Shown piece by piece: positions 12,395-44,382 of a DNA stretch of 50,180 nt; positions within the stretch are counted from its first letter, which is position 1; the number at the start of each line of letters is the position of its first letter. The stretch is taken from positions 1-50,180 of IMG/VR virus record IMGVR_UViG_3300033141_001359. One strand, given 5' to 3'. Under the pieces are notes generated by a model, which was not told where the DNA came from, searched no databases, and worked only from the letters and a program-made list of their open reading frames with translations. The translations under genes and the position numbers were made by a program. The stretch comes from a virus.

Positions 12395-12423
12395 ATTATA
12401 CGCCGGTATTGACCGGATGTCAA
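12395..12423 (-). promoter_or_regulatory. perfect-consensus sigma70 promoter (main early promoter)
   Basis: Minus strand: TTGACA (12418-12423), exactly 17 bases, TATAAT (12395-12400). Upstream A/T tracts (about 12433-12455) look like an UP element. It begins the early operon at 11800-12336. With every consensus base present, it should fire on host polymerase alone at infection. Confidence 0.85.
12403..12416. promoter_or_regulatory. candidate operator inside the promoter spacer
   Basis: Inverted repeat CCGGT-ATTG-ACCGG sits between the -35 and -10 boxes. A bound repressor would block polymerase; the Cro-sized XRE protein made from this operon is the obvious candidate, by inference. A single TCCGGT half-site also occurs in the spacer of the promoter at 45873. 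Confidence 0.5.
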
Positions 12424-13373: not shown

Positions 13374-13640
13374 TCAGCCTCCCTTCCGCAAAAGAAAAAC
13401 CAGGACGGTCACAAGACCGCCCAGAATGATGCCGAATATCCCCCACTGCAACCGCAGCCAGAGCCGGTTGCCCCTGATGAGCGCGCCGTACTCCGAGCAC
13501 GGCAGCTTGCCTATTGCGCCCCAGACACGGCTCATAGATTCGCGCAGTTCGTCAATGCTCTCGGCCACGCTTTCCAGCGTCGCCTCAGTGCGACCGTCGC
13601 GCAAGCCGCGCCGGTAGCTCTCGCCGTTTACCTTTGCCAC
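13374..13640 (-). CDS. XhlA/spanin-like membrane protein, 88 aa
   Basis: GTG start overlapping the upstream TAG (TAGTG), with AGGAAGGGA upstream. Residues ~8-40 form an amphipathic coiled coil (TEATLESVAESIDELRESM), and the C-terminus is one TM helix (LQWGIFGIILGGLVTVLVFLL) ending RKGG. This coiled-coil-then-TM plan is that of haemolysin XhlA-type proteins found beside holins and endolysins. Confidence 0.6.
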   Translation of the reverse strand: MAKVNGESYRRGLRDGRTEATLESVAESIDELRESMSRVWGAIGKLPCSEYGALIRGNRLWLRLQWGIFGIILGGLVTVLVFLLRKGG

Positions 13641-16249
13641 TATGCACCGTCCCTTCCTGGTAGTTTGATGACCCCGATTCCGAGATGGCTGACGCGGATG
13701 CGTGCCGGGTCGCCTGGCGCGGAGATCGTCCATACCTGATTGTCTCTGTTCGCACGGAGAGAGTCAAGCAATATGCCGGGCGACTTGTGGCCGGGACTGA
13801 AGATGTCGTGTAGAATTACGAATCCACCCGACCTGACAAGTGGTACGTAGTTTGTATAGTCCGTAAGCGGCTGCAACCCATCATGGTCGCCATCAATGTG
13901 GAGCACGTCAGCCAGTCCGCCTTCGGCCCACTTTCGGGCATCAAGCAGAGCATCATCAGACCGCTTGTTGACAAATCTCACAATATGGCCTCTGGCTGTC
14001 AACTCGTTTACGGCCCGCTCGAATACCGCTTTCTCCCGACTCATATAGGCGGCCTTGTCAGGCCGGGCGACATACCACTGGGGGGCCGGATGGGGGTCAA
14101 TCAGCAGTATTTCCATGCGTCTGTTTAGCGCGCCTGCCAGCGTCAGAATCCACGTCCCGTTGGCGCAACCGATTTCTATGACCCTACGTACCTGCTTGTC
14201 ACGCAGCAAGCCGACGAGTTGCGCGAATTCGGCGTGAAACTGTTGGAATTCGCCGCCGATATTTTCCGTTTGCTGCTTGCGCGATAGATACAGCGAGACC
14301 GCATCGCCGCTTTCCCACGCCGGAGAATTGAGGAGCGACAGGAGCTGGTCGGCTACGTATTCGGGCGAAAGCGCGACCATGCAGGGCCGTTGGTCCTGCT
14401 TCTCGTATCGGCATTTGTCGGCGCGCGGGTGATCCCAGCAAGGCGCACAATCGTATTCGTCCGCGCGGAGGATGCGGCAGTCTGTCGTCCAGGGCCGATT
14501 CTTGCGCTCGCTAGACGGCCCATATAGGGCGAGTACCGGCGTCCGCACCGCCGCCGCGAGATGTGAGAGCCCGTTGTCAATGCCGATGTAATACCGCGCC
14601 GCCCAGAGGATTCCAGCGGCCTGCGCGATGGTCGTCTTGCCGCACAGGTTCTCACCATACAAACTCATCCAGGGCTGGTCATCTTTCGCCGTGCCGAGGA
14701 AGACGAGCGGGACATCTGCCGCTTTCAACCGCTTGCAGCATTCCGCCCAGTGCGGCCAGCTCTTGGACACGAAGCCAGCACAGCCAATGCCGGCCACAAC
14801 ATAGCCTGTTGATAGGTTCGCGGATACCTGTGGCCATGTGGTCAGTTGACCGCTGGGCATCGGCCCCTTGTAGCCAACGGCTTTCGCTGCCCGGAAATTA
14901 CATTCAACCTCATGCTGCGTCCGCCACGCCCGGTCAACCTCAGCGACCCGTGATTCAATCGGCGTGAAGACCGGCCCCCGAGCCCAGTAGCTACCGGCGA
15001 CATAACGATAATAAGCCAAGTCGGGCTCATCCTTGACAACTTTGCGTACCCACGGCTGTAACTCCAACACTTCTTTCACGTCATCCGCCTGCTCCAGGCC
15101 GCGATCCCATACGTCAACCGGTTCGCCGCTGAGTTCAGAGAGAGCCTTGATAGTCGGTACACACATCAGCACGTTGCCCAGTCCGCCGCCGATGCAGTAG
15201 AGAGCGCGCTGCGCACCTTCGGCAACGTGCCAGTCTGCCGGGAACGGTCGCCTCAGAACCTCTGCGAAGAATTCTGCATCCGAACGCACCTTCCGTTCTG
15301 CAAACTCTCGATGCTGAGCCTCGGCTTCTGACTGGGCGAATATCTCCTCAGCCTTTCTGTCGCCATGCCAGCGTCGAAACCACGGTTGCCAGATGGCATT
15401 CCACGTCTTCTCATCGAACACGACTCGATGCGCATACATCCAGTTTGCCGTGCGATGCCCGTCGGGTATCTCATAGGGACTGAGGGCTTTGCCTTGCGGG
15501 TGATTCCACGAGCGGTATCGGTGGAGTACGCAGACATCCCGATAGACGTATATCGGCGTGTCGCTGAACCATGCCCTGAGCGAGATGCCGAGTTCCTGCG
15601 AACCCCACCAGCCGGGATAGCGGTTCCAGCCGCCGAGCCGGTCGAACGTCTCCCGCGAATAGGCGAAGCTCGAAGGGTTTACCGCCTGAGTCTGAGTCAA
15701 CGTTTCGCTCGGCCACTCGATTGTGTTATCGCAGAACAGGCCGACCTTGCGATGGTCGTGCCGGTCAAACGCGAGGATATGCCCTCCGCAGTATGAATTG
15801 TTCGGCACGCCCTCGGAATCGGCATAGTCGGGACATAATAGGTTGCAGGACTTTGTCCCGTGGCGTTTGCACTTGTCGCCGTGCTTGCAGCTCAGAGGGC
15901 CTACCGGCGGCGTAATGATGCAGGGCGAATGTTCAAGGCAGGCCCGTCCCCAGTCGGCCATAGTTCCCCGCGAAATGCGGTTGTGGGCGTCGAGATGCGC
16001 TATCACGTCCGCCCCGGGGTCAAGTGCGTGCTTCACGCCGACCGATTTCGCCTTCCCGATTCCTATTTTCTTTTCCGGCTTGAGCACGAGAACATCATCG
16101 CCGAGATTCTCGCAGCTTCCGTCGGTCGTGCCGTCGGCGACTACAACCACGTCGAGTTCGCAATCGCCCCTGTGCCTTCGGGCGGAGTCAATTGTCCACC
16201 CTACGTCCGGCCCCTCATTATAGGTATTCAGTACCAAGCACACCTTCAT
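13640..16249 (-). CDS. three-domain enzyme: GT2 / GT9 / SAM methyltransferase, 869 aa
   Basis: ATG 16249 behind GAGGGTGACGCAA. Domain 1 (~1-300) is a GT2 glycosyltransferase: VCLVLNTYNEGPDV start, D-A-H metal site (87-89), and FDRLGGWNRYPGWWGSQELGISLR resembling polypeptide-GalNAc transferases. Domain 2 (~345-640) is a GT9 heptosyltransferase-like enzyme: CIGGGLGNVLMCVPTIKAL, and DNGLSHLAAAVRTPVLALYG at ~558-577, plus a Cys-rich CAPCWDHPRADKC stretch as in GT9 proteins. Domain 3 (~680-860) is a class I methyltransferase: VIEIGCANGTW and LHIDGDHDGLQPLTDYTNY. Probably builds and methylates a glycan on the virion or the host surface. Encoded between tail genes and the lysis cassette, apart from the 29-35 kb glycan cluster. 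Confidence 0.8.
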   Translation of the reverse strand: MKVCLVLNTYNEGPDVGWTIDSARRHRGDCELDVVVVADGTTDGSCENLGDDVLVLKPEKKIGIGKAKSVGVKHALDPGADVIAHLDAHNRISRGTMADWGRACLEHSPCIITPPVGPLSCKHGDKCKRHGTKSCNLLCPDYADSEGVPNNSYCGGHILAFDRHDHRKVGLFCDNTIEWPSETLTQTQAVNPSSFAYSRETFDRLGGWNRYPGWWGSQELGISLRAWFSDTPIYVYRDVCVLHRYRSWNHPQGKALSPYEIPDGHRTANWMYAHRVVFDEKTWNAIWQPWFRRWHGDRKAEEIFAQSEAEAQHREFAERKVRSDAEFFAEVLRRPFPADWHVAEGAQRALYCIGGGLGNVLMCVPTIKALSELSGEPVDVWDRGLEQADDVKEVLELQPWVRKVVKDEPDLAYYRYVAGSYWARGPVFTPIESRVAEVDRAWRTQHEVECNFRAAKAVGYKGPMPSGQLTTWPQVSANLSTGYVVAGIGCAGFVSKSWPHWAECCKRLKAADVPLVFLGTAKDDQPWMSLYGENLCGKTTIAQAAGILWAARYYIGIDNGLSHLAAAVRTPVLALYGPSSERKNRPWTTDCRILRADEYDCAPCWDHPRADKCRYEKQDQRPCMVALSPEYVADQLLSLLNSPAWESGDAVSLYLSRKQQTENIGGEFQQFHAEFAQLVGLLRDKQVRRVIEIGCANGTWILTLAGALNRRMEILLIDPHPAPQWYVARPDKAAYMSREKAVFERAVNELTARGHIVRFVNKRSDDALLDARKWAEGGLADVLHIDGDHDGLQPLTDYTNYVPLVRSGGFVILHDIFSPGHKSPGILLDSLRANRDNQVWTISAPGDPARIRVSHLGIGVIKLPGRDGA

Positions 16250-16272
16250 TTGCGTCACCCTCCGTCTCTGAG

Positions 16273-16488
16273 TTATCTCGGCGCATACCATTCGCAATTC
16301 CGACACCGCGTATGCCAGACCTCCTGTCCCCGCTTCGCGCAGTCGAAAATTCGTATCTCGCCACAACAGGGTTTGTGTTCGACGCGCTTGACCGGCCCCT
16401 GATGAATACAGTGGAGTTCCCCGCCTGTCAGCCCTTCGGCGGCTGCCGCCCTCGCCGCCGCGTCTATGCGCCCTAAGAGATTGGTCAT
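16273..16488 (-). CDS. small Cys/His-rich protein, 71 aa
   Basis: Ala-rich N-terminal helix, then HCIH..., KPCCGEIRIFDC and HTRCRNCEWY, six to eight potential metal ligands. Overlaps the previous stop (ATGA). Located between fibre-like genes and the big glycosyltransferase; function unknown. Confidence 0.6.
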   Translation of the reverse strand: MTNLLGRIDAAARAAAAEGLTGGELHCIHQGPVKRVEHKPCCGEIRIFDCAKRGQEVWHTRCRNCEWYAPR

Positions 16489-16889
16489 TTCTCACCTCGT
16501 GTCTGTTCAGGCAAGACTCGCTGCGCGATCCCGCGTGCCCGCTTCCTGGGCATTCCCCGCCTGACTGCCTGAACGAGCGCATCCGCCGCAACATCCGTGC
16601 CTGCGCGGTTGCGTAGTATGCGCACTGAACCTTCAATATCGTCTCTCAGCCGCACCCGGCGTTCAGGCATGTCATCCCAATCCCAATGCAGCACGATGCG
16701 GTTTTTCAGCAGTTGGATTATGGACTCCGCAACTATGCGCGATTCGCCCGTCATCTTATGCCCCTGACACTGGCATTCCTCGCAGATACCGATATGCACC
16801 ACATGGACCCAGCCGACAACATCCGATATCAGGCGACATTTCACTAAATCATCACGGCCAATGAGGCTTTCGGCATACGGGCAGGTCAT
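16485..16889 (-). CDS. hypothetical protein with N-terminal Cys cluster, 134 aa
   Basis: MTCPYAESLIGRDDLVKC... and HIGICEECQCQGH give a zinc-binding N-terminal third (~1-45). The remainder is a helical, basic domain (ALVQAVRRGMPRKRARGIAQR). Coupled by ATGA to the Thr/Val-rich gene before it and to the Cys/His gene after it. Confidence 0.55.
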   Translation of the reverse strand: MTCPYAESLIGRDDLVKCRLISDVVGWVHVVHIGICEECQCQGHKMTGESRIVAESIIQLLKNRIVLHWDWDDMPERRVRLRDDIEGSVRILRNRAGTDVAADALVQAVRRGMPRKRARGIAQRVLPEQTRGEK

Positions 16890-35742: not shown

Positions 35743-37101
35743 TTACGAAGTCCCCGCTTGAAGAATGGCCATCGCACGCGGCTGTACCAACTGTCCGCCG
35801 ACCGCCGCGCTCACGGTGAACGCGGTGACGTTCTTACGGAAGTTGTAGTGCTCAGAACGCTTCACGACGACTTCCTGCTCTATCGGCACGATGTATTCCT
35901 TGAGGTCGCCGAAGATCACGTCACCATCAGCGTATGCCGTCAGCCGGTGTGTGCTGATGTACGGATAGCCGACCAGCTTCTGGAAGACCTGGCCCGCGAC
36001 GCTCTCGACGAACAACGGGCGACCCTGTGTGTCCTTGTCCTTCTTCAGGTTCTGCATACATCCGTCAGCAACGATGTACGTCGCTCGCGCCCGATGATAT
36101 GCACGAACCGCGAATTCCAGGTTCACCAGGTCGTCGTACTGGATGTCGTTCTGCGCCGTGCGGTTGACGGTGCGAATGCCGGTGGTGTTCACGATGCCCG
36201 TCGGCTGACCAGTGCCGGAGCCGCTTAGGAACGCGACGTCCAGCGCGTGGTTGAGCGCGCCCTTGAACAGCCGCGTGAGCAGCGGCTCAAGGGGAATCGC
36301 CGAGCGATTCAGCAGCCGGTTGCTGATTTCGGTGTAGGCCGCGACCTCGTGCGTCTCAATCGTGACCTGTTCGAACTCCGGCTCCGTCTCCGGCTTCTCG
36401 CCGCCTTCGTCGATCCACGACACCGTCACCCCACCGTATTCCTGCGCGTCCGTCTGCACGAGCCGCGGCCACACAATCGCTCCGGTATCCGACGGGACGA
36501 TGGTCGCCCTACCCAAGATGTGCGGTGCTTCAGCGTCAAGCTCAAGGAGTTCCCGGCGGTAGTCCTGGGGGATCAAGGCGCTACGCGCTGCATCCCCGGA
36601 GACCATCGGGATGGCCTTTCCTGCCGGCAGACCCGCGACCTTGGCGTATTCGTCGCCGAAAATTTGGACGACCATGTCTGGCGGCATCCGCACGCCGTCC
36701 AGCTTGTCCTTGAACTTCGGCAACTCGGGCCGCATCTCGACCATCAACCCGGGCTCGACGTCCTTGCCGTTGCAGTAGTCGAGGAACGCTCGCCGTTTCG
36801 CCTGTGCCTCCTTCTCGTGATCCTTCGGCTCCGCCGGAATCTTCGGCGTTAGCGTCTTCCCATCAACGTCAGTCTCGGCGGCCTTCTTGGCAGCCTGCAA
36901 CGCTACGCGCCGCGCTGCCTGCGACTTGGCCGTCTCAATCTTTTCCTTGAACGCCTTAAACTCAGCGTCCTTGCCCTTCAGGGCCTCCTCGACGGGCTTC
37001 CGCTTTTCAGCGTCCGGTTCCGCATCGAGTTGCGCCTGAAGGGTGTCCATCTCGGCAAGAACCGTCTCAGCCTTGCCGATGAGTTCTGCTAGTGTAATCA
37101 T
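35743..37101 (-). CDS. HK97-fold major capsid protein, 452 aa
   Basis: Forms the icosahedral shell. Residues ~1-80 form a charged coiled-coil delta domain used as scaffold and normally removed by the protease encoded upstream. The shell domain shows YRRELLELDAEAPHILGRATIVPSDTGAIVWPRL, EISNRLLNRSAIPLEPLLTRLFKGALNHALDVAFLSGSGTGQPTGI, and the ending FTVSAAVGGQLVQPRAMAIL, all typical of HK97-type capsids. Starts one base after the protease stop. Confidence 0.9.
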   Translation of the reverse strand: MITLAELIGKAETVLAEMDTLQAQLDAEPDAEKRKPVEEALKGKDAEFKAFKEKIETAKSQAARRVALQAAKKAAETDVDGKTLTPKIPAEPKDHEKEAQAKRRAFLDYCNGKDVEPGLMVEMRPELPKFKDKLDGVRMPPDMVVQIFGDEYAKVAGLPAGKAIPMVSGDAARSALIPQDYRRELLELDAEAPHILGRATIVPSDTGAIVWPRLVQTDAQEYGGVTVSWIDEGGEKPETEPEFEQVTIETHEVAAYTEISNRLLNRSAIPLEPLLTRLFKGALNHALDVAFLSGSGTGQPTGIVNTTGIRTVNRTAQNDIQYDDLVNLEFAVRAYHRARATYIVADGCMQNLKKDKDTQGRPLFVESVAGQVFQKLVGYPYISTHRLTAYADGDVIFGDLKEYIVPIEQEVVVKRSEHYNFRKNVTAFTVSAAVGGQLVQPRAMAILQAGTS

Positions 37102-37102
37102 C

Positions 37103-38836
37103 TTACCCCTCTTCGAGGCCGAGGGCTTTCCGGTGCTTCTGGAGATGCCCCTTCACCGCTGCGCTCGCCTCCTCGCCAGAGCGTGCTCCCTGAGCCGCCG
37201 CCCAGGCCGCATTCAGTCCGCCCTTGTGGAGGTAGAGCGTGCCCGTCGTGAAGCGTCCACTGTCATCAGGGCTTCCTCCGCCCTTGACCCAGTGATGTGG
37301 ATACCGCCACGTACTCACGCTCTCCGGCTTTCCCATATCGGCGAAAGCCAGTCGCGGGAGCTTGGCCTTGTCCACCTTGCCCCAGGCCGGTTCCCCTTCG
37401 GCCACTTTGCTGTTGTGTGAAAATGATTTTGCATCCAGCGCCAGACGTTCCAGCGCCAGCCGATGCCTCTTGACCTGGATGCCCCATGAGTGAAGTGCGG
37501 TCCGCCCCTCGGCAGATGCCTTCGGCTCCGTCTCCTTCAAGAGGCTTTCGAGCTCGTCAGAGAGTTTGCGTAAGCTCTCCAATGTGCTCTGTACCCGGCT
37601 TCGGTTTCGCGCCGAGAGAACGCGGCCTTCCTTCCCCTCCGACTCGCAAGGTGCGTTCACGTCCCGTCGCAACGCCTCCGCCGCTTCCGTCGCGGCCTTC
37701 GCCGCCGTAATCGTTGCCAATTCGTTCGCCGGTATCGTCGTAACGGTCACCTCAAGCAGCATGATCTCCAGCAAGTCCCGCACACTCTTCCCGCCTTCCT
37801 CGGTGTCCGTCCATTTCTTGGGGATGTAGCCGATACTCAGGCCATTGACGTGCCCCTCCACGATCTTCTGTCGCGTCTCCTGGGCTATGGGCGTGGCCGA
37901 GAATTCCGCGTGAATCCAGAGGCCAAAATCATCTTCCTTCGCCTCGGTCACTGTGCCAATAACTTCAAGGGTGTCGCCCCCGTGCGCATAGTGCCGCACC
38001 ATTAATTTGACCTTGCCCGCCGGGACGCGCTCCTTGATCGTCTTTTTGAATGCGCCCGGCTTGATGCGTTCCCCCTGCCCGTCCACGTTACCGAAGGCCG
38101 CACCATGTCCCTCCATCCAGCCAGCATCCCCCTCGTCCTTCTTGCCCTCGGCTACGTCCGCCAACGGCGCAACTTTCAGGTCGGGCTTCGGCGACGGCTT
38201 CTCAAGTCGCACATGTGTGTCAAGCTCCTTTCCCGGCTGGCCTGGCCCCGGTCTCTCAGCCCGCCGCATCTGGCCGCCGCACTTCGGGCATTTGATATTT
38301 GCACAGTGCTCGTCAGTTTTGAGCTTATGCCCGCATTCAATGCACTCGCAGTTATACTTTCTTTCGCCTTCGGACTCATCATCAGCCTTGCCCTTTTTGG
38401 CCGCCTCAAACGTGCCGTCATGTGCCTTGCAATGTGACCGCGCCTCCTCTACATCCCACGTTCCCTTCGGATAGCGGTAAGCCTGTTCGCTCATGGTTGT
38501 TTCGCCCTTGAGCTTCCCGATGATCACGTCATATTCCTTGCCGTCGTGCTTGCGACTTACGCGCCGGAAGGTCTCTTTCTGGAAATCCCCGGGCGGGCGC
38601 AGACGACAGGCGTGCTCATTCGGGTAGGGCTTGCCCTGAATGACCTGGAGCGCCTTGTCCAGAACCTCTTGTTCGCCCTCTGAGAGGCTCTTGCCCATGA
38701 CCGTGCGCCACTGGATATAGCACGCAGCGGAGCGCGCCTCGCGGTCAACGTACTTGGCGGCCATTCCTTCGTCTTCCATGCAGCGGGCGATGAATTCCCT
38801 CTGCGTCTCGTCCTCGTTCGGTTTCAGCTTTGCCAT
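37103..38836 (-). CDS. prohead (maturation) protease with extra domains, 577 aa
   Basis: HK97-type S78-family protease at residues ~235-390: GHGAAFGNVDGQGERIKPGAF, catalytic His in LMVRHYAHGG (~282-285), and Ser334 in GHVNGLSIGY. Longer than the ~200-residue norm. Residues ~60-150 form a helical domain with LRPPGDFQKETFRRV, ~163-190 a zinc ribbon (CECIECGHKL ... IKCPKCGGQM), ~410-470 a coiled coil, and the C-terminus is a module with YPHHWVKGG ... LYLHKGGLNAAWAAAQGARSG. The extra parts may position the protease or scaffold the prohead. Confidence 0.85.
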   Translation of the reverse strand: MAKLKPNEDETQREFIARCMEDEGMAAKYVDREARSAACYIQWRTVMGKSLSEGEQEVLDKALQVIQGKPYPNEHACRLRPPGDFQKETFRRVSRKHDGKEYDVIIGKLKGETTMSEQAYRYPKGTWDVEEARSHCKAHDGTFEAAKKGKADDESEGERKYNCECIECGHKLKTDEHCANIKCPKCGGQMRRAERPGPGQPGKELDTHVRLEKPSPKPDLKVAPLADVAEGKKDEGDAGWMEGHGAAFGNVDGQGERIKPGAFKKTIKERVPAGKVKLMVRHYAHGGDTLEVIGTVTEAKEDDFGLWIHAEFSATPIAQETRQKIVEGHVNGLSIGYIPKKWTDTEEGGKSVRDLLEIMLLEVTVTTIPANELATITAAKAATEAAEALRRDVNAPCESEGKEGRVLSARNRSRVQSTLESLRKLSDELESLLKETEPKASAEGRTALHSWGIQVKRHRLALERLALDAKSFSHNSKVAEGEPAWGKVDKAKLPRLAFADMGKPESVSTWRYPHHWVKGGGSPDDSGRFTTGTLYLHKGGLNAAWAAAQGARSGEEASAAVKGHLQKHRKALGLEEG

Positions 38837-38848
38837 TTCTCTGTCCCC

Positions 38849-41800
38849 TTAGATTGAAGCGAGCAATGTGCATCGGCAGTTGCTTGACACCACCCCGTTG
38901 GCAATGTATAATGATGGTATTGTTTGGAGGTCGTAAACATGACCACGAAAGTTTCGGCGTCTTGTGAACGTGACGTTTGTCGGCAGTATCTCTCCGGCAT
39001 ATCCGCTCAAAAGCTCGCGGAATTCACGGGCATCAACCTTGCGACTGTGTTTAGAATCCTTCACAGAAATGCCATCAAGCCCAATCAGAGAATACTGCTC
39101 TTGGACACGAGCGATATTGTCCGGCGCTATGTCGCCGGGGAATCTGAATTGGCGCTTTCCCGCTCGTTTCACGTTTCCAGAACAGCCATTCGCCGCCGAC
39201 TTCTTGCTGCTAATATCACTCCGCGAAGTGGAAGCGACGCCAACAAAATCAGAATGCAAAAGCTCTCTCCGGCTGAACGCCTCAGCCTCACGTCTGCCGC
39301 CCATGATGCTATCCGCAACCGCCCCCAATCTGAGGAGCATCGTTGCAAAATCGCGTTCACCAGGGAGAGGAAGCAACTCGGCATAGCTCCCGCTGAAACC
39401 CGTCTCGCCATTGCTCTTGCGGGTCGGGGTTTGACCGTGACTGCGCAAAAAGCTATCGGTCGCTATAACGTTGACCTTGCCATTGAGGAAGGTTCCGTCG
39501 CCGTGGAAATATTCGGGGGTCATTGGCACACGACCGGTCGTCATGCCCTTGGATGCCGCAAGCGCCTTGACTACATCATCAATGCGGGTTGGGTGCCCGT
39601 TATTATTTGGGTGACTCCCGATTATCCTCTCGAAGCTGGGGCAGTAAATTACTTGGTCTCCCTCTCGAAGGCTCTTAGCCTTGGCAAAGCCCCAAGGGGT
39701 CAAGAGCATGTGATTCGGGGTGACGGTAAGCCGACCGGAATCGGCAAAACCAAGCTCAATTACCGGGCCGTTGTAGGGGGCGACAAAACCGGCAAGCTTA
39801 CCAGGGGCCAGGATGGCCGTTTCACCAGCGACGCAGTTGGGATGTAACGGCGGATGTTCCACGTCAAACGGTATGTCCATGTGGCCGCCGGTCAATTCCG
39901 TGTATCCGTCCACTTCTGTCTCCCCCTCAAGCCGCGTCCCCGCCGCGACAAACCGGTCGTTTATCGGTATCTCCATTCCGTCAAACGCTGAGCAGTAGTC
40001 GCAGTTGTGAACGAGGATACCATTCGCATAGAAGCACGCCGCATCCTCAACTTTGATGTCAAATACGGTTGCTTTGCCTTGCCACAGATGATATAATGCC
40101 CGAAGTCCTGTCAGGAGTATAGAGCCATGTATCATCTTACCTGTGAGTATTGCGGCAAGGCATTTGAGCGCCCTTCGCATCCAGTTGGTGCACACACATA
40201 TTGTAGTACTCGCTGTTATCATGCCGCGACGAAGAAAGCTCCGACTTTGACTTGCCAGATATGCGGCGCGAAATTTATCGTACCTACATCCACCGCCAAT
40301 CGGGGACGACGCTTCTGTTCTCGTGCCTGTTATCTGCGAAGCACAGCCAACAAGGTACTGAAGGTCTGCGCCGTTTGTGGCAAGACTTTTGCTATCAACG
40401 CCAGCATTGCCGAGCGATATACCGTTTGTAGTTGGAAGTGCCGGGCACATGTTCGGCGAACTCAAATCTGTGTCCGCTGTGGTAAATCGTTTATTACCAA
40501 CAGACCAAAGGGGAAGTATTGTTCCGAAGCATGTTATCGGCCCCCCCACCTTTTTACCTGCCTCACATGCGGCAAGAAGTTTCGGAGGCAACCCACGAGT
40601 AATCGCCGATTTTGTTCTATTGCCTGTTACCGACGCTATCAGGGCGAAACTAGAATCGAAAAGATTGTCCGCAAAGCCCTGGAGGCTGCGCACATTTCGT
40701 TTAATCAAGAACGTCAGGTCGGACGTTACTCGATTGATTTTGCGCTTCCAAAAGGCAAGATTGCGCTGGAGGTAGATGGTAAATATTGGCACCAAGATAT
40801 GCGCCGCGACGCCCGCAAAACGCGCTATCTTCAGAAGCGGGGATGGACGGTCATTAGGATTACCGAAGACCAAATCAACAACAGTCACAACATGGTCGCC
40901 CTTGTTATCGGGATTTTGAATAACATCCCCGGTTTTCAGATTACCCGCCTTGACCCACCCGCGTGACTTCTCGTATATTCGATGATTCGCCGTGCATAGG
41001 AGCATCCCGTTCTCACAGCACACCAATGACAGCGGCCCATCTGTGGCTCGTTGGCTCTTCGCCATGACTCTTCGCAGACCTTCCGGCGTACACACGAGGT
41101 CGCCTGGTTCAATATCCTTGATTGCCACAGTTCCGTCAGCACTAAGTACCCTGCTATACCCATCCAAACACAACGCATCGTCGTCCGTTACCAGCCAACT
41201 TACCGTCCCAACGCCCTCATCGGCATAAAGCTGCTTCGCGCCCTCGTTGTAGCTCCATATCGTGGTTGTACGGGTTATCAGTTCCGCACGAGTCTTGCTT
41301 CGCGCAAGCCCCTGTGAGAGCAGTTGCTTTTGCATATCACGCGGCGTTAGGCCCTCTGCCGCCCCCCGCCTGACAATCCGCTCTATCTCGCGTGCGCTTG
41401 TCTCCGTCTCCCATTTCGAAGTCATCGCCACCCAATCACCGACCGGCGTATGGAGCCGCTGCGCGAGATACGCCTCATGCCCGAACGCCGTCTCAAGCTC
41501 GCCGATTGAAATCGGCGGGGTCGGCGGCTCAGCATCCAGTATGATTTCGTCCTTCGCCATCATCTCGCGTATCGCAGCCCCCTTGCCGAATTCCACCTCG
41601 GCCAGGTGGTAGCCGTCCATTGTCATGGCGAGCATCAGCGGCAGCTTCACCGCCGCCAGCGATTTCGCCCATTTCGGCGCGAGTTCGGCGGCCCACTTCT
41701 GCCGCCCCTCGCCCACGGCCTTTGCCGCTTCCTTGACGTGTGCAGCCAGCTCTCTCCGCATCGCCTGCCGCATCTTCGGCAGCCAGCCGTCGGATATTGC

Positions 41801-41854
41801 TGCCCGCCTTATGGCGACGGCGGGGTTACTTCTCCGTTTGGCCATCAGCGGCAT
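38849..41854 (-). CDS. Mu F/SPP1 gp7-like minor head protein carrying two inteins
   Basis: About 1001 residues unspliced, 293 if both inteins are removed. Start taken at ATG 41854; the ribosome site is weak and ATG 41845 is possible. The extein N-part (to VSWLVTDDDAL) has the helices of the head-morphogenesis domain. The conserved cysteine cluster CDYCSAFDG ... PPLHPNCRC is split twice: intein 1 lies directly before the first Cys of CDYC, intein 2 directly before the Cys of N-CRC. Each junction leaves Asn/Cys, as needed for splicing. The protein is thought to act inside the head near the portal, early in packaging. Both inteins carry antisense nuclease genes (38939 and 40127). Confidence 0.9.
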   Translation of the reverse strand: MPLMAKRRSNPAVAIRRAAISDGWLPKMRQAMRRELAAHVKEAAKAVGEGRQKWAAELAPKWAKSLAAVKLPLMLAMTMDGYHLAEVEFGKGAAIREMMAKDEIILDAEPPTPPISIGELETAFGHEAYLAQRLHTPVGDWVAMTSKWETETSAREIERIVRRGAAEGLTPRDMQKQLLSQGLARSKTRAELITRTTTIWSYNEGAKQLYADEGVGTVSWLVTDDDALCLDGYSRVLSADGTVAIKDIEPGDLVCTPEGLRRVMAKSQRATDGPLSLVCCENGMLLCTANHRIYEKSRGWVKAGNLKTGDVIQNPDNKGDHVVTVVDLVFGNPNDRPSPLLKIARFAGVAAHILVPIFTIYLQRNLAFWKRKINRVTSDLTFLIKRNVRSLQGFADNLFDSSFALIASVTGNRTKSAITRGLPPKLLAACEAGKKVGGPITCFGTILPLWSVGNKRFTTADTDLSSPNMCPALPTTNGISLGNAGVDSKSLATNGADLQYLVGCASQITGTRTEASSPIGGGCRYDKFRAAYLASQSRSFLRRGMITASTTICVCTNWMRRALKCLAAILTGKMIHGSILLTGLRALYHLWQGKATVFDIKVEDAACFYANGILVHNCDYCSAFDGMEIPINDRFVAAGTRLEGETEVDGYTELTGGHMDIPFDVEHPPLHPNCVAGETAILAPGKLAGFVAPYNGPVIELGFADSGRLTVTPNHMLLTPWGFAKAKSLREGDQVIYCPSFERIIGSHPNNNGHPTRIDDVVKALAASKGMTTGRVPMTPEYFHGDGTFLNGKVNVIATDSFLRSHGQTPTRKSNGETGFSGSYAELLPLPGERDFATMLLRLGAVADSIMGGRREAEAFSRRELLHSDFVGVASTSRSDISSKKSAANGCSGNVKRAGKRQFRFPGDIAPDNIARVQEQYSLIGLDGISVKDSKHSRKVDAREFRELLSGYAGEILPTNVTFTRRRNFRGHVYDLQTIPSLYIANGVVSSNCRCTLLASI
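38879..39835 (-). other. intein 2 (319 aa) in the minor head protein
   Basis: Starts CVAGETAILAPG (block A) and has block B as LTVTPNHMLLTPWGFAKAKSLREGD with the T-x-x-H motif. Block F is GHVYDLQTIPSLYIANG, ending VVSSN before extein Cys. Cys1, TxxH, Asp in block F, terminal Asn and +1 Cys are present, so it should splice. The penultimate residue is Ser, not the usual His, which may slow the last step. No LAGLIDADG or HNH domain in its own frame; the middle is the complement of the nuclease gene on the other strand. Confidence 0.88.
38884..38912 (+). promoter_or_regulatory. perfect-consensus promoter inside intein 2, for the antisense nuclease
   Basis: TTGACA (38884-38889), 17 bases, TATAAT (38907-38912), then GGAGG (38926-38930) eight bases before ATG 38939. 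On the other strand the same bases encode the splicing end of the intein: -10 lies over Ser-Leu-Tyr, -35 over Val-Ser-Ser next to the terminal Asn. Only two plus-strand promoters of this quality are evident, both before nuclease genes. Confidence 0.85.
38939..39847 (+). CDS. antisense homing-endonuclease-like protein 1 (HTH + Vsr/DUF559 nuclease), 302 aa
   Basis: ATG 38939 is set by GGAGG eight bases upstream. Residues ~12-95 hold two helix-turn-helix-like units (YLSGISAQKLAEFTGINLATVFRIL and YVAGESELALSRSFHVSRTAIRRRL), then a NUMOD3-like stretch (PQSEEHRCKIAFTRER, ~129-144). Residues ~150-245 are a PD-(D/E)XK nuclease of the Vsr/DUF559 type: E153, D179 in YNVDLAI, E190 in VAVEIFGGHWH, then the helix with RKRLDYIINAGW. 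The last ~50 residues are the complement of intein blocks A and B, and its final VGM-stop is complementary to extein codons Leu-His-Pro-Asn. Expected to cut intein-less alleles of the minor head gene; this is inference from design. Confidence 0.85.
   Translation: MTTKVSASCERDVCRQYLSGISAQKLAEFTGINLATVFRILHRNAIKPNQRILLLDTSDIVRRYVAGESELALSRSFHVSRTAIRRRLLAANITPRSGSDANKIRMQKLSPAERLSLTSAAHDAIRNRPQSEEHRCKIAFTRERKQLGIAPAETRLAIALAGRGLTVTAQKAIGRYNVDLAIEEGSVAVEIFGGHWHTTGRHALGCRKRLDYIINAGWVPVIIWVTPDYPLEAGAVNYLVSLSKALSLGKAPRGQEHVIRGDGKPTGIGKTKLNYRAVVGGDKTGKLTRGQDGRFTSDAVGM
40069..40097 (+). promoter_or_regulatory. extended -10 promoter inside intein 1, for the antisense nuclease
   Basis: TTGCTT (40069-40074), 17 bases, TATAAT (40092-40097) preceded by TGA, an extended -10. 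AGGAG (40113-40117) stands nine bases before ATG 40127. The minus strand here encodes intein residues just before block F. Same layout as the promoter in intein 2. Confidence 0.75.
40127..40966 (+). CDS. antisense homing-endonuclease-like protein 2 (five zinc fingers + Vsr/DUF559 nuclease), 279 aa
   Basis: Residues 1-170 hold five units of C-x2-C-G-(K/A)-x-F ... (F/Y)-C-S-x2-C-Y starting at C6, C43, C81, C115 and C145 (the third has C-S-W-K-C-R), treble-clef-like zinc fingers seen in phage homing nucleases. Residues 172-270 are the nuclease: E174 (GETRIEK), YSIDFAL with D204, IALEVDGKYWH with E215, D217 and H222, then RKTRYLQKRGWTVIRI. This is the textbook DUF559/Vsr-like order. Lies wholly inside intein 1 on the opposite strand and ends opposite intein block B. 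Probable site-specific endonuclease for intein 1 spread. Confidence 0.88.
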   Translation: MYHLTCEYCGKAFERPSHPVGAHTYCSTRCYHAATKKAPTLTCQICGAKFIVPTSTANRGRRFCSRACYLRSTANKVLKVCAVCGKTFAINASIAERYTVCSWKCRAHVRRTQICVRCGKSFITNRPKGKYCSEACYRPPHLFTCLTCGKKFRRQPTSNRRFCSIACYRRYQGETRIEKIVRKALEAAHISFNQERQVGRYSIDFALPKGKIALEVDGKYWHQDMRRDARKTRYLQKRGWTVIRITEDQINNSHNMVALVIGILNNIPGFQITRLDPPA

Positions 41855-41890
41855 ATTCAACTTTTAGAGCCAATCCAATTAGCCAAATGC

Positions 41891-43159
41891 CTATTCTTCC
41901 GGCTCCTCTGCCGGCTTGCTCCGCACGGGCTGCTCCACAATATTGATTGGCAGCAGGTACACGTCCCCGTCATCCACAGCCTCCAGTCCGGCCATGTCAC
42001 GCGCCTCGTTGCGCGTTATCGCCCCGCCCCTGAGCAGTTCCGCCGCCCGCTTCGCCCGCTGGTTCACGTCCTCCTGAAGCTCCGGTATGTCATCCAGCTT
42101 GAAGCGTATCTCAAGGCGCTCCTCGCCCTCGTTACGGAACAGGCCCCGCGTCAGCGTCCCCGCCAACGCCGCCCATAGTGGCCTCAGCGTCTCGGTGTAG
42201 AACGATTTGCGGGCCGTGGCGTAGTTCGAATACGTCGCGCTTTCGATGCCCACACGGACGCCCACGAGGATCGGCGGCACGGCGAATGCCGCGCAGATAC
42301 GCGACTCCGACAAGGCCGCGAATCCAGGCCAGTCCATGTCTTTCAGGATGCCGGGGAATTCGATTGAGACGCCGGGTGGCAGGATCGGCGTTCCGCCCCG
42401 TTTCCCCTTGCCCGCGATGTCGTGCAACGACTGCCGCAAATCAGCCTTCTGCCGCTCGCTCAAGGGGGCATTCCCAGGCTCTCGCTTCAGCGTAAGGCCG
42501 GGCACCTTGAGGTTCGTGAGCATTTCAACGAGATAATTCTCCCGTTCACAGTCAAGCTGATAGTCATGCAATGCGGCCTGAAGCGGCCCCACGCCGTCAT
42601 AGACGCTGGATGGGTCTATGAACCGCGCATAGAACATGTCTTCCGTCTCGACCTTGCGGACTTGATGCCTATCCTGGATCACCTCGTAATAGTCAATCAG
42701 CTTGCCGCCCGTGCCGCCGGTCTTGACCGAGACCCAGCTTGTCGGAACCGGCCAAAGCTCTGCGAGTTCACCGGCCCGCGTCCGCCATTTCCAGATGAAC
42801 GATTTCCCGGCCAGCAGTAGCCGAGAGACCCATTCCTGCATCAGGCTGTTGTAGTCCCCGAATTCGTTAGGGCTATTCAGCAGGTCGGCTATCGGATGCG
42901 CCGGTGCGGCTTCCCAACCGTCCGGCGTCTGTAGCCCGACCTCGACACCCGCATCCGCGATTGATGTCGCAATCTCCTGCACGCAGGCGCGGATGACCGC
43001 GTGGTTCCTGTACGCCTTTTCCCTTTCGGCGGTCGAGTAGCTCTCCCAGATATTGTCGCTGACAATCCACGGGATGCCCGCGAGGACTTCCCAGCCGCTC
43101 GCATTGACGCCAGTGTCCTGCGCCTTGCCGCCCCATAGCCGCTTCAGCCAGCCCCTCAC
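41891..43159 (-). CDS. HK97-family portal protein, 422 aa
   Basis: Forms the dodecameric DNA gate at one capsid vertex. GTG 43159 overlaps the TerL stop (GTGA); a GTG at 43204 is possible. Motifs: ESYSTAEREKAYRNHAVIRACVQEIATSIADAGVEV, PIADLLNSPNEFGDYNSLMQEWVSRLLLAGKSFI, and FAVPPILVGVRVGIESATYSNYATARKSFYTETLRPL, all standard for HK97-type portals. Ends EPVRSKPAEEPEE-like acidic. Order TerL-portal-minor head-protease-capsid is conserved. Confidence 0.9.
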   Translation of the reverse strand: MRGWLKRLWGGKAQDTGVNASGWEVLAGIPWIVSDNIWESYSTAEREKAYRNHAVIRACVQEIATSIADAGVEVGLQTPDGWEAAPAHPIADLLNSPNEFGDYNSLMQEWVSRLLLAGKSFIWKWRTRAGELAELWPVPTSWVSVKTGGTGGKLIDYYEVIQDRHQVRKVETEDMFYARFIDPSSVYDGVGPLQAALHDYQLDCERENYLVEMLTNLKVPGLTLKREPGNAPLSERQKADLRQSLHDIAGKGKRGGTPILPPGVSIEFPGILKDMDWPGFAALSESRICAAFAVPPILVGVRVGIESATYSNYATARKSFYTETLRPLWAALAGTLTRGLFRNEGEERLEIRFKLDDIPELQEDVNQRAKRAAELLRGGAITRNEARDMAGLEAVDDGDVYLLPINIVEQPVRSKPAEEPEE

Positions 43160-44382
43160 AGCAGTTCGATCCTCATGCTGTCCTCTGCTTTCGCCCCAGA
43201 CCACGCCAGCATCAACGCGGTCACGCAGTCATCGTGCATCCCCTCTGGCGCACTGTATCGCAGCATCCCTCCCGGCAGCCGCGTCATCCCGTATGCCTGC
43301 AACTCGCCGATCAGCACCGGATCGGGGATAATTTTCAGTTCGCCCCGCTGGAACGCCAACGCAAGCGCCTCCACGGCATTCTTCTTGCTCCCCGCCGTCG
43401 TCGTAAAAGGCTGCACGGGAAGCTCATCGCCTATCAACTGCTCTATCAGCGGCTCGCCCATGCTGTTGCGTTCGGCCACGATCAGGTCGGGCCTGAACCG
43501 GTCATAGACCGCCCTCAGCCGCTTCAACTGTAGCGTGTAGTCAATCTCGTTGAACCTGTCCTGGTACACGCAGGCCCTCTGGGTCGCGTCAATCACGGAG
43601 AGTACCGTGAAGTCCCGCAGCTTGCCCCAGTCAACGCCCATCACGTAACTGTGGCCATCAACGGCCCCTTCCTGCCATACGGCAGTCGCGGCGTCATTTA
43701 CGGCCCGGAACACCTCGCCCGCGTCGTCCATGAACTCTGCGAGGAACTCCTGCCGGAATATCCGGTCGGGCAGTGTCCGCCGGGCATCCTCTATCTCCGG
43801 TGCGGGGATAAACGGATTGTCCGAAGTCGGCAGTCGCCACGACGCCCACGCGGGCAGCTTGTCATCTATGCCCCGCTGGTATAGCCCGAATGCCCAGTTC
43901 CGCCCCTTTGGTACGCCTATAAACATCGCCCAGCCCCGATAGTCAGCCAATGTAGGCCGCACGAATTCCGACCACACCCGCTCCGGCATCATAGAGAATT
44001 CGTCCAGAACGACGCCCCGCACGCCCTCCCCGCTCAAGCTGTCAGGCCGCTCGGCGGTTCGGAGCCATATCTCGCTCCCGTTCGGAACCCGAATTTCCTT
44101 GTCCGCCTCTCTAATCTGTGCCCCAGCGGGCCGTAGCCGCCGCCCCAGTAGCCGCCAGGCGCGCTTCATAGACGCCGACCGCCAGGACAGCCCGACCCAC
44201 CAGTAGAGTCCCGGCGTCTGGCAGATTCCCCTGATGATCCGGTCAACCCCGAGCTCCGTCTTGCCCCAGCGCCTGCCTGCAAATACGACCTGAAACCGCG
44301 CACTGGAACTAAAGATTTGCCGCTGCGCGGGATGAGGCCGAGGCATCGCAATAGTGATTGTGCCGCCACCTTCACTCCGCAT
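43156..44382 (-). CDS. terL: terminase large subunit, 408 aa
   Basis: Packaging motor and nuclease. Walker A in AGRRWGKTE (35-43), Walker B VVLDE (124-128), then a coupling motif region (FIGVPKGRNWAF). The RNase H-like nuclease begins at YVMGVDWGKLRDFTVLSV with the first catalytic Asp, followed by LIVAERNSMGEPLIEQL and a late Asp pair (GMHDDCVTALMLA). On the short side for TerL but all elements are present. Start overlaps TerS by 11 bases. Confidence 0.92.
   Translation of the reverse strand: MRSEGGGTITIAMPRPHPAQRQIFSSSARFQVVFAGRRWGKTELGVDRIIRGICQTPGLYWWVGLSWRSASMKRAWRLLGRRLRPAGAQIREADKEIRVPNGSEIWLRTAERPDSLSGEGVRGVVLDEFSMMPERVWSEFVRPTLADYRGWAMFIGVPKGRNWAFGLYQRGIDDKLPAWASWRLPTSDNPFIPAPEIEDARRTLPDRIFRQEFLAEFMDDAGEVFRAVNDAATAVWQEGAVDGHSYVMGVDWGKLRDFTVLSVIDATQRACVYQDRFNEIDYTLQLKRLRAVYDRFRPDLIVAERNSMGEPLIEQLIGDELPVQPFTTTAGSKKNAVEALALAFQRGELKIIPDPVLIGELQAYGMTRLPGGMLRYSAPEGMHDDCVTALMLAWSGAKAEDSMRIELL

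Follow-up and report, generated by a model that had tools for sequence, protein, structure and literature searches.

The window analysed here is a 50,180-bp phage record with its head operon on the - strand. The minor head gene (MuF/SPP1 gp7-like; 38849-41860, -) is flanked by the portal (41891-43204, -) and TerL (43156-44382, -) genes on one side and by the maturation protease (37103-38836, -) and major capsid (35743-37101, -) genes on the other. It encodes a 1,003-aa precursor (P0001), which scores 46 bits against Pfam Intein_splicing and has two Intein_splicing/intein_Cterm matches (Pfam and the TIGR intein C-terminal model). Intein 1 (40004-41170, -; 389 aa, residues 231-619 of P0001) has the junctions DDAL/C...VHN/CDYC, at the first Cys pair of the MuF protein, and intein 2 (38879-39835, -; 319 aa, residues 676-994) has the junctions HPN/C...SSN/CRC. 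Each precedes a conserved Cys of the minor head protein, and both carry the class 1 hallmarks, that is, Cys1, a TxxH block B (TANH at 40982-40993, -, in intein 1; TPNH at 39710-39721, -, in intein 2), blocks F/G, a terminal Asn and Cys+1. The penultimate residue of intein 2 is Ser, not His. Intein_splicing was matched by 32 of 33 intein 2 homologues, and the structural model of intein 2 aligns with the splicing domain of the Mtu RecA intein (Z 12.5, rmsd 1.4, 106 residues aligned), which gives it a predicted Hint fold. The site of intein 1 is also filled in 12 further loci (L092, L215, L216, L218, L219, L227, L228, L232, L234, L237, L238 and L252). With the intein 1 protein as query no close relatives were found among viral contigs, and its relatives came only via the nuclease described below.

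Several familiar architectures can be set aside for these inserts. No endonuclease family (LAGLIDADG, HNH or Vsr) was matched in the intein frame of either intein or of the intein 2 homologues, which excludes a bifunctional intein with an in-frame endonuclease. A split intein is excluded by the single open frame of 1,003 aa, unbroken in all complete relatives examined, and a group I intron or other RNA element by the lack of any Rfam match at the gathering threshold and by the nature of the insert, which is a translated Hint domain. Elsewhere in the window, a 998-aa ORF (13640-16636, -) has a DNA-methyltransferase match solely near its C-terminus (residues 800-949).

Each intein is overlapped on the + strand by a complete nuclease gene. 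Nuclease 1 (40127-40966, +; 279 aa) is antisense to intein 1, spans 72% of it and joins a zinc-finger array to a DUF559/Vsr-like PD-(D/E)XK domain, whereas nuclease 2 (38939-39847, +; 302 aa from its ATG) spans 94% of intein 2 and joins two HTH units to an EDxHD/Vsr-like PD-(D/E)XK domain; both N-termini are predicted to bind DNA sequence-specifically. Both genes are in codon alignment with their inteins: reverse-complementing an intein codon of the overlap yields a nuclease codon (the aligned antisense register). Nuclease 2 reads on past the intein and stops in the upstream extein (39836-39847), opposite the Leu codon of LHPN, which means that its ORF ends in sequence provided by the target gene. 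Profile searches with nuclease 1 matched DUF559 (E 2.4e-13), Vsr (E 1.2e-5) and zinc fingers, and its best solved relative by sequence is 3r3p (I-Bth0305I; phmmer, E 5e-6). Nuclease 2 matched the MTES_1575 REase and HTH profiles, MTES_1575 being matched by 32/32 proteins of its family. Its predicted catalytic domain is placed at 39389-39679 (+) by alignment, model and Foldseek; residues E153, D179, E190 and W196-H197 are invariant or nearly so in the alignment, the model has a mean pLDDT of 87, and the best Foldseek matches are I-Bth0305I and Vsr, at a probability of 0.98 but with an E value of only 0.022. Both nucleases thus have a predicted EDxHD/Vsr-like fold with an E...D...E catalytic pattern. 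In the annotated element-bearing phage records that we examined, the nuclease is listed in none of the deposited annotations.

A first-pass annotation of this DNA had proposed two inteins with complete splicing blocks in the minor head gene, no endonuclease domain in their own frame and full antisense Vsr/DUF559-like nuclease genes with different N-termini. The intein coordinates are confirmed, the sole qualification being the Ser for His in intein 2; the family searches agree on the missing in-frame endonuclease; and the N-termini indeed differ, one being a zinc-finger array and the other a double HTH.

The start of nuclease 2 is accompanied by predicted expression signals that are themselves part of the splicing domain. 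A predicted sigma-70 promoter with perfect consensus (TTGACA-N17-TATAAT; 38884-38912, +) lies antisense in intein block G, and a Shine-Dalgarno sequence (GGAGG; 38926-38930, +) lies antisense in block F, 8 nt before the ATG at 38939. The DNA of promoter, Shine-Dalgarno sequence and ATG is the reverse complement of the intein blocks reading SLYIANGVVSSN and HVYDLQT. In shuffled sequences the promoter motif is expected 0.00 times per window; a second perfect copy is present at 12395-12423 (-), away from the head operon. Among 62 scored loci (window counted; spacer 17 or 18), 14 have a 12/12 promoter at the same place, promoter scores average 9.48 and those of synonymous recodings of the region 7.82, and many single loci exceed their recodings at p <0.005. 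The exact N17 motif occupies this position in additional intein loci too and is rare elsewhere, and the Shine-Dalgarno sequence is present in 43/62 loci, with sequence and ATG at fixed spacing. The predicted promoter, ribosome-binding site and start codon of nuclease 2 are thus conserved beyond synonymous chance. The TTGACA promoter is mostly absent where inteins end in THN or VHN (L046, L051, L053, L059-L070). In several such inteins a TATAAT lies closer to the junction, which would place the -35 element in the extein. For nuclease 1, a promoter-like sequence (TTGCTT-N17-TATAAT; 40069-40097, +) has a weak -35 and a perfect -10 element and was too weak to be listed in the promoter scan of the window; a Shine-Dalgarno sequence (AGGAG; 40113-40117, +) stands 9 nt before the ATG at 40127.

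Probable mobility of the elements

Presence and absence of the element can be compared directly in phage Snoke (L084), where it is an 816-nt insert at HPN/CRS and homologous to intein 2. The insert is exactly absent from K1ind1, Sciku and ST521_2H4, whose flanks are 82-92% identical to those of Snoke. The deposited intein mat_peptide of Snoke, at 630 nt, matches neither the 816-nt insert nor the extent given in a note of the same record (Cys244-Cys516). Between two distant phages (L001 and L002), identity is 57% for the nuclease and 50% for the intein but 20% for the extein; nuclease and intein identities so far above that of the host protein are as expected if the element was transferred horizontally.

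Relatives of nuclease 1 also occur as free-standing genes, at 16 distinct loci. Two of them (L071, 3905-4727; L094, 1041-1850) lie just downstream of an intein-less MuF gene, convergent with it and overlapping its 3' end, and a third (L105, 3935-4672) lies near an intein-less MuF gene. Such arrangements suggest an intermediate stage on the way to an intein that has taken up a nuclease. The design also occurs outside MuF genes: on one contig (L247/L112) a zinc-finger nuclease is nested antisense within an intein whose host is a different, protease-like head gene (KGE/C...VHN/CKLP).

We read these elements as mobile inteins in which the homing endonuclease is encoded antisense and expressed on its own, and give this reading, which draws on sequence comparison and structural models, a probability of roughly 0.88. 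The likeliest alternative is that the antisense nuclease is real and merely housed in the intein, its work being superinfection exclusion, anti-phage cutting or packaging rather than homing. DUF559 and MTES_1575 folds do occur in restriction and defence proteins as well, and the gene is located in the head operon. However, among solved structures the nearest relatives are the homing enzyme I-Bth0305I and Vsr, the free-standing cousins adjoin the same target gene, nuclease and intein identity exceeds extein identity, and the antisense nuclease always lies within a mobile insert that occupies either of two conserved sites in MuF, the protease-gene insert being the one exception. We therefore consider a non-homing role unlikely. 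Several observations count against the antisense homing endonuclease reading: the Foldseek E value of nuclease 2, the penultimate Ser of intein 2, and the TTGACA promoter, which is missing in the THN/VHN sub-clade and weak for nuclease 1. Recent gains and losses of the intein could in principle also have had a driver other than this nuclease.

Splicing blocks and dual coding

The two frames of the element can be examined separately for selection. In a permutation test, the silent choices in one frame were shuffled while the other protein was held fixed, using pairs with <40% nuclease identity. Conservation was 0.769 against 0.257 ± 0.008 for the intein frame and 1.312 against 0.201 ± 0.008 for the nuclease frame, which shows that each translation is conserved more than the other frame imposes. 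Along the element, nuclease conservation dominates in the HTH and catalytic parts and intein conservation in blocks A/B and F/G. The same division is seen in dN/dS among nine Guernseyvirinae phages, for which we used a Nei-Gojobori-type estimate that is not designed for overlapping genes, so that the evidence is the contrast between regions and not the absolute value: the intein middle gives 0.13 in the nuclease frame and 1.27 in the intein frame, the intein C block 0.13 in the intein frame and 0.56 in the nuclease frame, and the exteins 0.14 and 0.06 in the host frame. The contrast in the middle indicates that this part is kept mainly for the other strand.

These values bear on a reading in which the inteins are degenerate, read-through is all that keeps the splicing frame open and an unspliced or cleaved product is assembled into the head. 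The penultimate Ser of intein 2 and the long middle with its predicted disorder would fit such decay. Against it, the splicing blocks are under strong purifying selection (the C block value of 0.13), Cys1, TxxH, the terminal Asn and Cys+1 are conserved, the predicted fold matches active inteins, and the insert has conserved Cys residues of an essential head protein on either side. We hold decayed inteins to be very unlikely.

The middle of intein 2 is mostly disordered in the AF2 prediction. Residues 81-126 are ordered (pLDDT about 90), and an intein-frame motif, PxxxEYFHGDG (39494-39526, -), lies opposite the nuclease motif VEIFGGHWH. This EDFHGDG segment, paired codon-to-codon with the VEIFGGHWH core, is an exception within the middle: in the intein frame it is more conserved than the permutations predict (z 23 and 10.6). 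Although its Guernseyvirinae substitutions follow the nuclease frame, the segment may have an intein-side function. One could go further and take the middle for an accessory or endonuclease domain of the intein's own frame (PxSAEDFHGDG), with the antisense similarity secondary, as the peak of intein-frame conservation opposite the nuclease core and the ordered AF2 segment might invite. Such a domain has no in-frame nuclease family match, however, and single changes in the segment among Guernseyvirinae follow the nuclease frame (149 nonsynonymous and 28 synonymous in the intein frame; 41 and 136 in the nuclease frame), which makes this idea very unlikely.

Antisense frames across relatives

From the window alone, with phage codon usage, the probability of an open antisense frame is 0.015 and 0.098 for the two inteins. 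This is not very improbable, and relatives are needed to exclude chance. A tblastn search with nuclease 2 matched 121 phage records, with hosts including Gordonia, Salmonella, Pseudomonas, Vibrio, Cronobacter, Mycobacterium and others, and in the regions inspected the match lies opposite a head or minor-capsid gene or an unnamed equivalent. For the nuclease 2 family we sampled 70 IMG/VR loci and 7 annotated phages. The aligned register has 0 stops across the nuclease match in every locus, against several to 34 in the other two registers. Codons that would create an antisense stop (TTA, CTA and TCA) number 0 in 64 distinct relatives, against 158.5 expected from the codon use of neighbouring genes (log10 P -75.9, uncorrected for shared ancestry), and the count includes loci of 38-47% GC. 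When loci were instead picked by their intein (287 relatives found, 80 kept, 61 distinct), an antisense ORF of at least 228 codons was retained in 61/61 distinct loci, a sample that is not fully independent because the search pattern overlaps the dual-coded core.

The cleanest contrast between nested and free-standing genes is provided by the nuclease 1 family. The 14 nested genes (the window and 13 further distinct loci) use such Leu/Ser codons at 0/463 positions and the 16 free-standing cousins at 106/472 (Fisher 5e-35). When GTDB genome contigs were searched with the P0003/L071 profile, two matches came up, both weak and neither of them nested. A shadow ORF, open by chance in GC-rich genes that shun TTA, CTA and TCA, might be argued from the window-only probabilities and from the aligned antisense register being known as the one most often open by chance, but we reject it with near certainty on the codon counts against flanking genes (low-GC loci included), the free use of these codons in free-standing cousins, the purifying selection on the nuclease frame and the family matches on both strands (MTES_1575 in 32/32 nucleases, Intein_splicing in 32/33 inteins).

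The remaining proposals of the first-pass annotation are supported. A long antisense-derived stretch within the intein accords with a middle under purifying selection in the nuclease and not the intein frame, and separate production of the nuclease would fit selection on its frame and the conserved promoter, Shine-Dalgarno sequence and ATG on its strand. A role of the nuclease in homing gains indirect support from its kinship with I-Bth0305I, the exact presence and absence of the insert and identities of nuclease and intein far above that of the extein. Disrupted antisense frames in close relatives had been considered there as well, and the opposite was found, the frames being intact. Phages lacking the intein were to be sought, and K1ind1, Sciku and ST521_2H4 are such phages, each without exactly the Snoke insert; among the loci picked by their intein, all 61 distinct ones keep the antisense frame open.

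Discussion

The antisense homing endonuclease reading builds on features observed in the elements themselves: both frames, their shared register, separable selection, conserved signals, exact variable insertion and homology to homing nucleases. Splicing, transcription, cleavage specificity and homing are what we infer, and they can be put together as follows. On the late-gene (-) strand, the insert would be read as an in-frame intein and translated within the minor head protein late in infection; blocks A/B and F/G would there form a Hint domain, linked by a spacer that is largely disordered, and the intein would splice itself out of the protein. Read antisense from the + strand, the identical codons would specify a second protein, a homing endonuclease of the EDxHD/Vsr type that has a DNA-binding N-terminus of its own; host RNA polymerase would transcribe its gene from a host-type promoter inside the C-terminal block of the intein. 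With its HTH or zinc-finger module the nuclease would bind the head gene of a resident or co-infecting phage that lacks the intein and cut it at the conserved Cys codon, after which repair would copy the whole element.

Parts of this design have counterparts in known systems. Some nuclear group I introns carry homing endonuclease genes that run antisense to the host gene, again within an element that splices itself, but these are RNA introns, in which the other strand is free of protein-coding demand. Dassa et al. 2009, which PMC10448857 cites, reportedly described split inteins whose halves flank a free-standing EDxHD (Vsr-like) endonuclease; the same nuclease superfamily is there tied to inteins in phage-like genes, although host gene and intein are broken in two, whereas here one continuous ORF is opposed by an antisense nuclease. 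I-Bth0305I (PDB 3r3p), an EDxHD homing endonuclease of a group I intron, shares the catalytic fold and the E...D...E motif, but its home is that intron and not the antisense strand of an intein. Canonical bifunctional inteins, such as PI-PfuI and the mycobacteriophage TerL inteins, carry an in-frame LAGLIDADG or HNH endonuclease (PMC5050341). They share the Hint domain, the conserved insertion in an essential protein, the sporadic distribution and the endonuclease-driven mobility, but their endonuclease is a domain in the same strand and frame, whereas here it is a separate antisense gene with a predicted promoter and ribosome-binding site. The nearest published overlap that we found is the ShiLan element, an out-of-frame HNH endonuclease within an insertion in a phage methylase, in the third frame of the host gene (PMC11855218). 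There, too, the nuclease overlaps a stop-free in-frame insertion, the distribution is disjunct and free-standing relatives lie near the target. However, the ShiLan element is without a splicing domain or detectable ribosome-binding site, whereas the present insert is a true intein with a codon-aligned nuclease on the opposite strand that has a predicted promoter and Shine-Dalgarno sequence.

Antisense intein nucleases were not described in the open-access literature that we searched, which did not extend to a 2025 preprint on the 'non-canonical architecture' of actinophage inteins that PMC11855218 cites for overlapping frames. Judged by its title and that citation, the preprint may describe related overlaps or constitute prior art, and Gordonia phages, which are actinophages, are among the carriers of the element. 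We see about an even chance that these two-sided mobile inteins make up a widespread class that had not been described before. In such a class, opposite strands would use the same codons, the C block would double as promoter, ribosome-binding site and start, and the nuclease core would be paired with EDFHGDG; DNA-binding architectures of at least two unrelated kinds (HTH and zinc finger) would have been captured, and free-standing genes beside the target gene would be ancestors or descendants of the zinc-finger group.

Endonucleases are usually sought in the intein's own frame, and hence such elements are filed as mini-inteins or as large inteins with an unknown middle and the nuclease is missed. 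The two-sided design recurs in scores of unrelated phages. It would decouple expression of the nuclease, from a host promoter on the opposite strand, from late expression and splicing of the structural gene. As a natural codon-on-codon sense/antisense pair with separable selection, it enables direct tests of how two protein families share one DNA, and the set of elements supplies putative rare-cutting endonucleases with predictable targets. How endonucleases enter inteins is a long-standing question, for which the free-standing nucleases beside intein-less MuF genes offer a source population. Distant relatives of nuclease 1 in Mycobacterium phages (such as KilKor and Fishburne) overlap an annotated DNA methyltransferase gene, and in KilKor the methyltransferase alone is annotated at the overlap.
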